This document shows, one piece after another, positions 21,379-25,760 of a stretch of 33,303 nt of DNA (positions are counted from its first letter, which is position 1; every line of letters begins with the position of its first letter). The notes below the pieces were generated by a model. That model did not search any database. It worked only from the letters and a program-made list of their open reading frames with translations, and was not told the origin of the DNA. Both the position numbers and the translations under genes were made by a program. The stretch covers positions 1 through 33,303 of the forward strand of contig CAJXNO010000032.1 of assembly GCA_913057205.1 (NCBI GenBank). Direction: 5' to 3'. The DNA is from an uncultured Flavobacteriales bacterium (GTDB taxonomy: Bacteria; Bacteroidota; Bacteroidia; Flavobacteriales_G; Salibacteraceae).

Positions 21379-23502
21379 CTAAACCGCCTCGAGGTCGGCG
21401 AGCTTGGCCTTCGTCTTGAAATTACCGAAGAGCACCAATGCCTCCTTTCCTTTGATTTCTAGCACTTCCCCTTTCTGCGAGCTGTTCTTCATACGCACCA
21501 CTGAACCAAGCTCGATCGGTTTTGGCGGCGGCGGTGGCGCAGCCGGTGTTTTCTTCTTTTTCGGTCGCTTGGCGGGCGTAGTTTGCACGTATTCCGTTTG
21601 CTTGTGCTTCGCCTGTTCCTTCTTTTTGACGATCTTACTCTTCTCGATCGCCAAGAACTTCTTAACCTCCTCTAGCAGCTTCTTGTTATGGCCCTTCATG
21701 CGATAACTCTGGATGAACTGCTCCATCTTCTTGCCGTTGGAAAGCGCCTTGTTGTTCTTTTCGATCAACTGCTGTTGCTTCAGTAAGCGCTCTTCGTAGT
21801 GCGCGATCAGGTCTTCATATTCCTCCTTTGCCTCATCTGCCTCTTCCTGTGCGCGACGCGAGGCTTTGTTTAATTGCTCCACCTCAGACTTCTCTTTCTG
21901 CAGGTTCGCGATGAGCTTGTCCATTTCTACCTTATTCGCATCCAGCCGCGTTTTAGCCTCTTCGATCAGGTCTTGAGGAATGCCATTGATCTGCGCCACC
22001 TCAAAGGTGAAGGACGATCCGGGTTGTCCGACCGACAGTTGATACAACGGCTCCAAGGATTCCCGATCAAACAACATGCTCGCATTTACCGCATTCTTTA
22101 AGCGGGCCGCCTTGAGCTTGATGTTGGCGTAATGGGTAGTGATGACACCGAAACTGCGGCGGTTGTAAAGGGTTTCAAAGAAAACCTCGGCCAATGCTCC
22201 TCCCAATTCAGGGTCAGAACCTGTGCCGAATTCATCCAGGAGCAGCAAGGTGCGCTTGTTTGCTTTCGATAGGAAGTGATTCATCCGCTTCAGGCGGTAG
22301 CTGTACGTGCTCAGCTGGTTGGCGATGCTTTGGTTATCACCGATGTCTGACAAGATGTGATGGAACCAACCAAAGGTGCTGGAAGGATCACATGGAACGA
22401 GCAATCCCGATTGCACCATGATCTGCATCAGTCCCACGGTCTTCAAAGTGATGGACTTACCACCCGCGTTCGGACCCGAGATCACCATCATGCGGCAGAA
22501 CTTATCCATGTAGAGGCTCTGTGGGATGGTGTTGAGTCCGGCATCCTTGTTGCTCAGGAGTAAGAGTGGATGGTACGCTTTGATCAATTCCAATTGCGGT
22601 TCATCGAGTAAGGCGGGTCTGCTGGCACCTAAACGCTGCGCCAAGCGAACCTTGGCTTGGATAAAATCAAGGGTGGTTAGGATGAACTGGTATGACCTTA
22701 CCAAGTCGATGTGCACCCGAAGCGTATCGGTGAGCACTTTGAAGATCTTTCTGATCTCCGCACGCTCGTCATCCAAGAGCATTTCGAGCTCATTGTTGAG
22801 CGCCATGTTCTCTTTGGGTTCGATGTAGGTGAAGCTGCCCGTCTTTGAGGCGCCTACCACATTCCCTGGTACTTGTCGCTTGTAGTTTGAAACCACCGTA
22901 AGCACGCGGCGATGGTTGATGTAGGCCTCCACGGTATCCCCTAGAAAGCCATCTCGACCGAGCTTCTTCACAACACGCTCAAAGTTCTTATTGATCTCAT
23001 TGCGGGTGCGACGGATATGCTGCCTGATCTTTAAGAGCTCGGGAGAGGCATCATCCTTCACCTGCATGCGGCGGTCCAGCACCTGTTCGATCGGATCGAT
23101 GATCTCTTTCGTGAAATAGGCCGACTGCGCAATATCAAAGAGTTGCGGGTAGTCTTCCTCGCGCTTGCGCAGAAACTGCATGATGTCGTTTACGAGCCTA
23201 CTCGCATCCAAGAGTCGAATGATCCCTTCCAGTTCAAGGATGGAAGCTGTGATACCCAGCTGCCTGATCTCCGCCTCCAATTCTTCGAACTCAAGGCGTG
23301 GAAATCCATCCTCCTCGTTGCGGATCGCCAGCAATTCTGCCGCAGCATCCAGCGCATCGTTCGCCTCATGCAAGCGCTCTAGCGGCTCAAGCTGCTCCAT
23401 GCGCGATTTGGCCGTTTCGCCATAGCATAAATCTACCAGCATAGAACGGATCGCACGGAACTCCAGGTCTTGAATGGTTTGTATGTCGATCTCAGGTCGC
23501 AT
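21379..23502 (-). CDS. mutS2: MutS2-family ATPase lacking the Smr domain
   Basis: 707 residues. The MutS ATPase core is intact: Walker A SGPNAGGKSITLKTVG (about residue 342), DIGDNQSIANQLSTYSY, Walker B LLLLDEFGTGSDPELGGAL, and VITTHYANIK. It is preceded by the MutS2-type core/lever helices and followed by a long coiled coil (EKSEVEQLNKASRRAQEEADE region) and a Lys/Pro-rich linker. It ends with a KOW-like domain (VRMKNSSQKGEVLEIKGKEA). MutS2 proteins usually carry a C-terminal Smr endonuclease domain after this point; here the protein stops. MutS2 acts on recombination intermediates or collided ribosomes in other bacteria; without Smr the cleavage step would need a separate partner. Confidence 0.9.
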   Translation of the reverse strand: MRPEIDIQTIQDLEFRAIRSMLVDLCYGETAKSRMEQLEPLERLHEANDALDAAAELLAIRNEEDGFPRLEFEELEAEIRQLGITASILELEGIIRLLDASRLVNDIMQFLRKREEDYPQLFDIAQSAYFTKEIIDPIEQVLDRRMQVKDDASPELLKIRQHIRRTRNEINKNFERVVKKLGRDGFLGDTVEAYINHRRVLTVVSNYKRQVPGNVVGASKTGSFTYIEPKENMALNNELEMLLDDERAEIRKIFKVLTDTLRVHIDLVRSYQFILTTLDFIQAKVRLAQRLGASRPALLDEPQLELIKAYHPLLLLSNKDAGLNTIPQSLYMDKFCRMMVISGPNAGGKSITLKTVGLMQIMVQSGLLVPCDPSSTFGWFHHILSDIGDNQSIANQLSTYSYRLKRMNHFLSKANKRTLLLLDEFGTGSDPELGGALAEVFFETLYNRRSFGVITTHYANIKLKAARLKNAVNASMLFDRESLEPLYQLSVGQPGSSFTFEVAQINGIPQDLIEEAKTRLDANKVEMDKLIANLQKEKSEVEQLNKASRRAQEEADEAKEEYEDLIAHYEERLLKQQQLIEKNNKALSNGKKMEQFIQSYRMKGHNKKLLEEVKKFLAIEKSKIVKKKEQAKHKQTEYVQTTPAKRPKKKKTPAAPPPPPKPIELGSVVRMKNSSQKGEVLEIKGKEALVLFGNFKTKAKLADLEAV

Positions 23503-23539
23503 TGGGCCGCAAAGGAAGAAAGAACCTGTGAGCGGAGTA

Positions 23540-23570
23540 TTGGTTCGAAGAGAAAAGAGTTGTACTTTTC
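23540..23570 (+). promoter_or_regulatory. Candidate promoter of the hypothetical gene at 23576
   Basis: TTG (23540-23542), 20-nt spacer, TACTTTTC (23563-23570), one base off the -7 consensus, 5 nt before the ATG. It lies in the 73-bp divergent gap shared with mutS2. Confidence 0.5.
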
Positions 23571-23575
23571 CTACA

Positions 23576-23974
23576 ATGGAACAAAGGGATTACCTCGAGC
23601 GGCAGATCGAAGCCTTGGGCAAGGTGCTGCGCAACATGATGCATTGGCTGGCCACCGGCGAATTACCGAGCAGCAGCGAAGCGCTTTCACAGTCCTTCCA
23701 AGAAAAACTCGAGCTTCCCCTCTCCTATTTTGATCCAGATGCGTTGCGGGCGCTTTTAGATGAACCAGCGTGGGATGAACAAAACCTAGAGACCTTGGTC
23801 CGCTGCTACCTCACCCTCGCCAACAGGAGCGACCAGGACGTTGCAGGTATAGCCCTTCAATGTGCCCGAAGCATCCTACTCGAGCTAGAAGAGCGCGCAG
23901 ACACCTATTCCTTCGACCGTGCAGCGATGCTGGAACGGGTGGAGCTACAAATGATTGAGTATGGGCTAAGGTGA
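23576..23974 (+). CDS. Hypothetical protein (132 aa, helical)
   Basis: Start set at the ATG directly behind the promoter-like box; longer frames to 23474 would run into mutS2. No signal peptide or membrane segment. The sequence is acidic and predicted mostly helical: it opens MEQRDYLERQIEALGKVLRNMM and later has LETLVRCYLTLANRSDQDVAGIALQ, which looks like a TPR- or helical-repeat style fold. The opening resembles small DUF6483-like proteins, but I cannot assign the family with confidence. It is divergent from mutS2 and followed by a 457-bp gap. Confidence 0.7.
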   Translation: MEQRDYLERQIEALGKVLRNMMHWLATGELPSSSEALSQSFQEKLELPLSYFDPDALRALLDEPAWDEQNLETLVRCYLTLANRSDQDVAGIALQCARSILLELEERADTYSFDRAAMLERVELQMIEYGLR

Positions 23975-24187
23975 ATGGCTGGCGCAGGCGAAAGCCGGCA
24001 TGGTCTTGCAGTCCTGAAAATCATCTTTTGAATAGCAACCGTAAATCGCGATGACGATCGGGATATGTGGATGCTCACAGGAAGTATGCTTCGGATTAAT
24101 AGCGAGCTGTCCTTCGTTTCACTGCCAAGTAGGATTTAGCTCTGTACGGTACTTTTTTTTTTTAGAAAAAAATTATCCAAAAAAATC

Positions 24188-24280
24188 GGAGAACTCAAGC
24201 CCTTCGGTGTTTTGCCCACGAAGCCCCATCGCCGCTTGGCTAAACGCCCCCACCCGCAACGCTGCCGCGCTGAGTTCTCC
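24188..24280 (-). ncRNA. Candidate structured RNA or hairpin repeat element
   Basis: Minus strand: GGAGAACTCA (24280-24271) opens a perfect 10-bp stem closed by TGAGTTCTCC (24197-24188), extended by two more pairs across a 1-nt bulge. Directly after it comes GA and seven T (24185-24179), as in an intrinsic terminator. Inside are several possible small hairpins: GCA-GCGT-TGC, GCC-AAGC-GGC, and CTTC/GTG pairing with CAC/GAAG. The GC-rich interior contrasts with the A/T-rich flank. It is not tRNA, SRP RNA or another RNA I recognise. It may instead be a multi-copy intergenic repeat. Confidence 0.4.
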
Positions 24281-24394
24281 AATCGGCCCGCATGTCGAGG
24301 TGAAGTTGATGTTAGCACCTTCGATCAATCACGTCTATGAATGCCGCACATACTGATGCAGACTGGAAACTGCTGACGTACATGGATCAATGCG

Positions 24395-24423
24395 CTTACG
24401 ATGAATCGCAATCTGTACCTTTG
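24395..24423 (+). promoter_or_regulatory. Candidate mtaB promoter
   Basis: TTA (24395-24397), 18-nt spacer, TACCTTTG (24416-24423), an exact TAnnTTTG box, 8 nt before the mtaB ATG. The -33 element is imperfect. Confidence 0.5.
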
Positions 24424-24431
24424 CCGGCCTT

Positions 24432-25760
24432 ATGCAACCGTATAAAACTGTCGCTTTTTACACGCTAGGCTGTAAGCTGAATTTTTCAGAGACCAGCACC
24501 ATTGCTCGGCTCTTTGAACAGGGCGGCTATGCCAAGGTGGAATTTGATGAGCGCCCGGATGTCTATGTGATCAACACCTGCTCGGTGACCGATCATGCAG
24601 ATAAAAAGTGTCGCAACTTGGTGCGCCGGGCCAAGCGCAATAATCCAGATGCCTTCATTGCGGTTGTTGGATGCTATGCGCAGCTCAAGCCTCAAGAGAT
24701 CGCGGAGATCGAGGGGGTGAATGTGGTGTTGGGTGCAAATGAGAAGTTCAACATCATTGAATACCTTGACAAGCAGCCCGTGAATGGTGTTGCGCACATC
24801 GAGAACGGACACATCAAGGAAGTCAAGGAGTTTGTTCCTTCCTTCTCGGCAAACGACCGTACGCGCACGTTCTTGAAGGTGCAGGATGGCTGTGACTATT
24901 TCTGTTCGTTCTGTACGATTCCGCTGGCTCGCGGGCGTAGCCGCAACCAAAGCATTGAAGATACCATGAAGGTGGCGCGCGAGGCGGCTGAAGGTGGTGT
25001 GAAAGAGATCGTTTTGACCGGGGTAAACATCGGTGACTTCGGACAAGGCGGAGAGGAGAGCTTCCTGCAATTGATCCAGCAACTCGATACCATTGAAGGT
25101 GTTGAGCGTTTCCGTATTTCAAGCATTGAACCCAACCTACTCAGCGATGAGATCATCGATTTCGTTGCAAAGAGCAAGAAGTTTGTTCCGCATTTCCATA
25201 TCCCGCTGCAAAGTGGTTCTGATCAAATGTTGGCAGACATGCGCCGACGTTACCGTACGGAACTGTATCGCAATCGTGTGGAGCACATCCGTCGAGTGAT
25301 GCCGGATGCATGCATTGGCGTAGACGTGATCGTTGGGTTCCCAGGTGAGACCGATGAAGAGTTCATGAAGACCGTAGACTTCATCCACTCGATCGACGTC
25401 AACTACCTGCACGTATTCACCTACTCAGAGCGTGCGAACACCACGGCCTTGCGCATCGATGAAGTGATCCCGATGCAGGTGCGCCAGGAACGCAACAAGG
25501 TATTGAGCAACATCTCGCACAAAAAGAAGCGTGCCTTTTACGAAGCCCAATTGGGCAGCACACACGAGGTACTGTGGGAAGCCAGTGAGAATGAAGGCAT
25601 GATGCAGGGATTCACGGAAAACTACGTGAAAGTTCAGCGTCCTTTTGATCCTGCATTGGTCAACAGCACCCAGCGCGTGCAGTTGGAGCAGATCGAGCGC
25701 AACGGCATCGTATCTGCGGGCGTGGAAGCGGATATGATGTTGGTAGGAGAATCCGCTTGA
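24432..25760 (+). CDS. mtaB: tRNA t6A37 methylthiotransferase MtaB
   Basis: 442 residues, normal length. This radical-SAM enzyme adds a methylthio group to t6A at position 37 of ANN-decoding tRNAs. The N-terminal UPF0004 domain has the auxiliary-cluster cysteines C14 (TLGCKLNFSE), C50 (NTCSVTDHADKKC) and C81 (VVGCYAQLKP). The radical-SAM motif CDYFCSFC supplies C154, C158 and C161, followed by LTGVNIGDFG and HFHIPLQSGSDQML. A C-terminal TRAM-like region ends the protein. TLGCKLN and the plain RGRSRNQS segment favour MtaB over MiaB or RimO. The following LuxR-type gene has its own promoter overlapping the mtaB stop. Confidence 0.93.
   Translation: MQPYKTVAFYTLGCKLNFSETSTIARLFEQGGYAKVEFDERPDVYVINTCSVTDHADKKCRNLVRRAKRNNPDAFIAVVGCYAQLKPQEIAEIEGVNVVLGANEKFNIIEYLDKQPVNGVAHIENGHIKEVKEFVPSFSANDRTRTFLKVQDGCDYFCSFCTIPLARGRSRNQSIEDTMKVAREAAEGGVKEIVLTGVNIGDFGQGGEESFLQLIQQLDTIEGVERFRISSIEPNLLSDEIIDFVAKSKKFVPHFHIPLQSGSDQMLADMRRRYRTELYRNRVEHIRRVMPDACIGVDVIVGFPGETDEEFMKTVDFIHSIDVNYLHVFTYSERANTTALRIDEVIPMQVRQERNKVLSNISHKKKRAFYEAQLGSTHEVLWEASENEGMMQGFTENYVKVQRPFDPALVNSTQRVQLEQIERNGIVSAGVEADMMLVGESA

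Follow-up and report, generated by a model that had tools for sequence, protein, structure and literature searches.

A folded intergenic element in a Salibacteraceae genome, probably one copy of a low-copy modular repeat

Genomic setting and sequence features of the element

The window analyzed here, a DNA stretch of 33,303 nucleotides, is the entire contig C32 in the genome of an uncultured Flavobacteriales bacterium (G000; 2,827,823 bases in 68 contigs). On its minus strand, an imperfect hairpin (body B) points away from mtaB, a plus-strand gene for a protein with radical SAM and UPF0004 domains whose start lies 152 nt to the right of the body. A 166-aa open reading frame (ORF; 23474-23974, plus strand) without a Pfam match converges on the hairpin from the left and lies between a MutS-domain gene and the repeat described below. 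A Por_Secre_tail domain is also present in the window and points to the Bacteroidota. The gap between the MutS-domain gene and mtaB measures 929 nt and holds both the 166-aa ORF and the repeat. At four same-genus loci (L069, L070, L073, and L074), a divergent MutS-domain gene (69-73% identical) and mtaB are about 120-175 nt apart, and no such element was found in the MutS-domain/mtaB gap of the two nearest same-genus loci inspected. A distant homologue of the 166-aa ORF (29%, E 4e-11) precedes mtaB in one of the ten same-genus loci searched (L072). The features of the element are as follows:

24281-24406, minus strand: leader U1, decayed in this copy (sequence comparison)
24188-24280, minus strand: body B, an imperfect hairpin of 93 nt with 65% GC, the conserved core of the repeat, present in all seven full copies
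24271-24280, minus strand: 5' arm of the closing stem P1, GGAGAACTCA; with small changes also in five half copies, within the body-start motif b
24256-24261, minus strand: 5' side of a possible 6-bp pseudoknot, CRTYGC type (columns 23-28)
24237-24248, minus strand: 5' side of the inner helix P3, type GGTGTTT.AGCC, with five two-sided pairs over seven copies
24227-24232, minus strand: 3' side of the possible pseudoknot, GCGATG, identical in 7/7 copies (columns 59-64)
24206-24218, minus strand: 3' side of P3, type GG.CAAAACACC (consensus structure)
24188-24197, minus strand: 3' arm of P1, TGAGTTCTCC; P1 is paired in 96.9% of cells
24179-24185, minus strand: run of seven T, with GA between the run and P1
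24148-24178, minus strand: module T, an A/T-rich palindrome of the GGATAC-T(n)-A(n)-GTATC type, diverged in this copy (mean identity 90%)
24078-24147, minus strand: module V, a poorly kept spacer (mean identity 50%)
24045-24077, minus strand: U2, start of a second leader copy past the body, weak here (E 0.003; sequence comparison)

The preliminary description of this DNA had proposed a perfect 10-bp closing stem, a seven-T run immediately after its 3' arm, and a GC-rich interior in an A/T-rich gap. The stem was confirmed: on the plus strand, GGAGAACTCA reads at 24188-24197 and TGAGTTCTCC at 24271-24280, and the two perfect arms enclose 73 nt. By itself this stem is ordinary: the list for the window has 11 inverted-repeat pairs of at least 10 nt whose arms lie within 120 nt, this one included. 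The seven T are there on the minus strand, but GA separates them from the stem; five other copies have 5-6 T at this place, and the most diverged one (C2:53226) has 4 T. The body has a GC content of 65%, against 43% at 23975-24187, 49% at 24281-24431, and 50% in the window, so that the A/T-rich gap holds for the left flank only. The minus-strand fold of 24170-24290 reached -44.2 kcal/mol (z -1.37), and 15 of 200 shuffles were as good; the plus-strand fold gave z -2.83, with 3 of 200 shuffles as good. Because neither the stem nor the minus-strand fold stands out clearly from chance, they show no function when taken alone. What sets the element beyond chance is that it recurs in seven full copies across the genome and that one of its inner helices carries two-sided changes.

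No Bacteroidota -33/-7 promoter was found in the 300 nt preceding any of the 11 body starts examined. At 23960-24460, no sigma-70-type promoter was found, nor any terminator by a scan allowing loops of 3-8 only. At 24416-24423, 8 nt ahead of the start codon of mtaB, the window contains TACCTTTG, which matches the -7 box of Bacteroidota.

Copies, modules, and distribution

A blastn search of the own genome with E up to 10 returned 14 matches, comprising seven full copies, five half copies, and two matches of 14-15 bases (E 1.04 and 3.61) that were dropped as chance. The full copies, in which the body is covered, lie at C32 (the window), C37:20697, C2:91744, C1:29028, C52:1407, C1:168036, and C2:53226, and the six others are 72-88% identical to the window copy (E 8e-36 to 6e-10). 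The half copies, at C2:53468, C60:147, C1:29964, C37:21006, and C2:91534, contain the leader and the body start only; in these, U and motif b are joined to other sequence, mostly purine-rich. The seven bodies served to build a covariance model (R1), which they therefore match by construction; in the own genome it recovered the same seven and no eighth at E up to 0.01. A leader query gave 15 matches there. The copy number is perhaps underestimated, because one contig ends (L067, 6854-6971) and another starts (L066, 1-180) inside the repeat. Counting copies had been suggested as a way to separate an RNA gene from a mobile repeat; the outcome was in between, with few, diverged copies whose core is kept, neither a single copy nor many identical ones.

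In full copies, the modules follow the order leader U, body B, AT palindrome T, spacer V, and at least part of U again. The better-kept leaders contain a hairpin of type ATCCCGAT..ATCGGGAT and a stretch of type GATCGGAGGTGATAGCATGAA (GGAGGTGATAGCATGAA-like), and little recognizable U precedes the body at C2:91744. Over the seven full copies, the mean pairwise identity was 60% for U1, 84% for B, 90% for T, 50% for V (a generous figure, as it comes from a gapped alignment of diverged sequence), and 71% for U2, and B exceeded V in 21 of 21 copy pairs. The exact T module occurs at six places in the genome, five with B and one without it (C61), and is diverged in the window copy and C1:168036. Directly before T, an extra GC-rich hairpin-like module of about 20 nt was noticed in L007 (C2:53205-53225) and in L042 (C61, just before position 1503).

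The modules also occur independently of one another: the leader is found with or without the body, T without B (C61), and V types are mixed relative to B types. For example, the copies at C37 and C1:29028 agree in 95/101 positions of B and 33/33 of T and have a 7-nt insertion in common, but only in 32/62 positions of V; the V of C37 agrees in 41/62 positions with that of C32 and in 41/62 with that of C2:91744. The whole unit is flanked by direct (U) repeats and not inverted ones, and B alone has 10-bp inverted ends with no consistent duplication beside them. We read the mismatch between V and B as probably reflecting module exchange or separate movement, or selection on B and T, or both.

All seven full copies are intergenic according to the ORF tables, and where an ORF extends through a copy, its frame is not conserved. 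Before the body, the neighboring gene shares its strand in four of seven cases, namely an ORF (C37), tRNA-Pro (C2:91744), a DAO-domain gene (C2:53226), and a thioredoxin-like ORF (C52; named from reading), and it diverges in the other three, namely mtaB (C32), ribose-phosphate pyrophosphokinase (C1:29028), and an ArsC-family gene (C1:168036). After the body, a same-strand ORF follows at about 265-350 nt in four of seven copies (C37, C1:29028, C2:53226 with Thioredoxin_9, and C1:168036 with LPG_synthase_TM), and a converging gene follows in three (C32, C2:91744 with DUF2867, and C52). With splits of 4/7 versus 3/7 on either side, there is no systematic orientation to genes.

Outside the own genome, blastn with E up to 0.001 gave no match in 59 relatives, 12 of them from the same genus. 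With the R1 model, further genomes gave no match either, whether from the family (34), the order (41), or the class (294; up to 13 candidates scored per genome), and blastn found none in 394 other genomes of the phylum (up to 2 candidates scored per genome). These sets overlap and contain one genome per species, and weak relatives could be missed because only a few candidates were scored in each genome of the larger searches. No match came from phage or plasmid records, and viral contigs matched neither the body-start 20-mer nor the 3' pattern; such collection searches may omit entries from the own genome or from one very close to it. The 20-base body-start pattern had one match in genome contigs, in the actinobacterial Geodermatophilus, and the leader matched 24 bases in the same-genus genome G007 (E 0.009) with no leader or body recognizable by eye around them; both were taken as chance. 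The best reading of these searches is that the repeat appears species-restricted among the genomes searched.

Structure and coding potential of the body

The consensus structure consists of the closing helix P1 and the inner helix P3, and 96.1% of cells were paired on this structure versus 92.9% in shuffles. Five pairs were changed on both sides, all of them in P3 (shuffle mean 1.9; 1 of 500 shuffles as high), corresponding to eight two-sided cells (shuffle mean 2.0; 0 of 500 as high), and sliding the partner gave at most one two-sided pair. Further pair types were not above shuffles, which were as high in 441 of 500. Seven of the eight two-sided cells sit in C1:168036 and C2:53226, which have three pairs in common, so that the independent covariation events are few. 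The eighth belongs to the window copy, in which A-U (24237 with 24218) replaces the G-C of most copies. No pair of P1 was changed on both sides in the seven copies. Covariation of the kind asked for in the preliminary description is thus seen in P3, mostly in two copies. Minimum-energy folds of single sequences contained P3 in four of seven copies, and it was absent from the fold of the window copy.

The possible pseudoknot was paired in 97.6% of cells with one-sided changes only, which makes its support weak. Invariant columns of B were found among unpaired positions (21/37, e.g., in GCGATG) as well as among paired ones (38/57).

At gathering score, Rfam 15 had no match in the window and matched only tRNAs at the seven copy loci, which bears out the earlier remark that the element resembles no recognized RNA class. 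Weak matches with E 2 to 3.7 (HOTAIRM1_2, mir-684, twister-P3, and snoR66) were below gathering score and taken as chance.

The best-kept leader has a Shine-Dalgarno-like GGAGGTGAT ahead of an ATG, and in some copies an open frame continues through B, such as a 104-aa ORF in L061. A small coding ORF through the body was rejected because the ATG lies at varying distances from B and a 7-nt indel puts copies in different frames. Similar predicted peptides in other Bacteroidota were not confirmed by the nucleotide searches (394 genomes of the phylum, 294 of the class, and the 20-mer with its one actinobacterial match).

Interpretation and comparison with known repeats

We assign a probability of about 0.68 to the reading that the element belongs to a modular, non-coding interspersed repeat that is species-restricted, has few copies, and is similar to BOX, SPRITE, or BrickBuilt; the folded stretch most likely represents an old DNA repeat that spread by itself, and not a dedicated RNA gene. 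Among the options raised in the preliminary description, a mobile hairpin repeat is the best supported: the element is multi-copy, modular, and intergenic, has a hairpin-forming core, occurs in one genome among those searched and not in the relatives searched, and has an orientation that is not tied to genes. The past spread of the repeat would have taken place at the DNA level, through recombination between copies or through a transposition-like, non-autonomous process, and the copies may now be mostly decaying. If a minus-strand transcript crosses it, P1 and the U run would act as an intrinsic terminator or as a hairpin stabilizing the 3' end, presumably as a side effect and not as a dedicated gene function. 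Counted against the repeat reading are the presence of only seven full copies, the far better preservation of B and T than of V and U, and the five two-sided pairs, which speak for maintained pairing; comparison of the copies also revealed neither terminal inverted repeats of the whole unit nor a target-site duplication. Plain neutral decay of one unit does not predict that B and T are kept over V and U, so that this reading also requires separate movement or exchange of B-T, or else selection.

The main rival, which we consider unlikely, holds that B and T form a multicopy structured non-coding RNA family under selection, with a branched or pseudoknotted fold, its own terminator, and several paralogous loci. 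Such a family would agree with the high identity of B (84%) and T (90%) relative to V (50%) and U (60-71%), with the five two-sided P3 pairs and their eight cells above shuffles, and with the frequent invariance of unpaired columns of B (21/37). It agrees less well with the confinement of 7/8 two-sided cells to C1:168036 and C2:53226, which may reflect few events, with the further pair types that are not above shuffles (441/500), and with a minus-strand z of -1.37 that is not unusual, the plus strand folding better, as a DNA palindrome could. Also speaking against this family are the lack of a -33/-7 match within 300 nt before the 11 body starts and of a sigma-70-type promoter at 23960-24460, and its absence from every relative searched. 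Less probable still is that B and T constitute a new lineage-specific structured RNA, about 130 nt long, in which an inner helix covaries, a pseudoknot may form, and a terminator is included, with selection keeping it in seven loci while the surrounding repeat decays; in that case, a mobile repeat would be seen in transition to an RNA gene family, or as the carrier of one. The small RNA suggested earlier keeps some of its expected features, since the copies are not identical and one helix covaries, but the repeat reading is better supported.

An ordinary intrinsic terminator or attenuator of a neighboring gene is very unlikely, even though a GC-rich stem is followed by a U run on the minus strand, 4/7 copies come after a same-strand gene or tRNA, and 4/7 have a same-strand ORF about 265-350 nt further on. 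The window fits neither arrangement, with mtaB on the plus strand 152 nt to the right and the 166-aa ORF converging; moreover, P1 encloses 73 nt, the scan of 23960-24460 (loops 3-8 only) found no terminator, and gene orientation is unsystematic. In particular, the attenuator mentioned in the preliminary description is weakly placed, as no same-strand gene follows in the window and three of seven copies are followed by a converging gene, although four have a same-strand ORF following. The flanking of a 108-aa and a 275-aa ORF by leader copies (C1:29 kb and C52) recalls a cassette-array recombination site of the integron attC type, but the RYYYAAC/GTTRRRY core sites occur in 0/7 bodies on either strand and the copies are scattered over several contigs rather than placed in one array, which leaves this explanation hardly credible. 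The least probable of all is a chance hairpin: the stem and energy alone would allow it, and the six other bodies (blastn E 8e-36 to 6e-10) refute it.

The repeat resembles BOX, RUP, and SPRITE as well as BrickBuilt in build and distribution. The pneumococcal BOX, RUP, and SPRITE elements are described as modular or hairpin-forming, nearly confined to one species, and judged parasitic and non-autonomous (PMC3049150). Like the present repeat, BOX of Streptococcus pneumoniae has a variable module content, a predicted hairpin RNA, a near species-restricted distribution that also includes close kin, and open frames through some copies (PMC3049150). It differs in its 125 copies versus seven here, in its unrelated phylum, and in its known terminal inverted repeats and target duplications, where the present unit has direct U flanks, and it is likened here by description and not by sequence (PMC3049150). 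SPRITE of S. pneumoniae is likewise interspersed and resembles a long Rho-independent terminator, and target duplication is not established there either; it has an AT-rich 18-bp duplex and a U-rich tract, in contrast to the GC-rich branched body followed by an AT palindrome in our case (PMC3049150).

The BrickBuilt MITE of Porphyromonas gingivalis, which probably belongs to the same phylum as the host of the present repeat, is also species-specific and intergenic, with leader and tail subunits, stem-loops, and no Rfam match, and it has no blastn match outside the species (PMC4596501). Unlike the present repeat, it has a 23-nt tandem minisatellite, small inverted-repeat ends, and 19 copies in one strain (PMC4596501); no minisatellite of this type appeared in our alignment of the copies. 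REP elements with RAYT transposases are palindromic repeats outside genes too (PMC3733652, PMC6006769), but their palindromes are given as 20-40 bp (PMC3733652) versus a body of 93 nt. The present repeat is thus of an ordinary kind and newly seen in this genome, and no published description of such a repeat was found in the open-access literature searched. Terminators, spurious small ORFs, and assembly breaks commonly originate from small repeats restricted to one species. The uneven decay of this one, with the core and palindrome kept and the spacer lost, offers a compact case for asking whether mobility or an RNA role preserves the structure of bacterial repeats.

Several other sequences were noticed around the copies. 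The ORFs of 108 aa (L063, 5418-5744) and 275 aa (L065, 1732-2559) that lie between leader copies at C1:29 kb and C52 are both lipoprotein-like by reading, and the 108-aa ORF has no Pfam match. The C37 copy is flanked by two small ORFs that are similar by reading and lack a Pfam match (L060, 4944-5456 and 6164-6508), which could reflect a gene duplication around the repeat or insertion of the repeat between paralogues. After two half copies, tRNA-Leu genes (taa, caa) are found (L066, 34-396; L063, 5857-6686), straight after the purine-rich sequence in L066 and about 600 nt further on in L063, with an ORF bearing a 23S_rRNA_IVP domain in between. The tRNA-Leu together with about 75 nt alongside it matches at 85% between L066 and L063.
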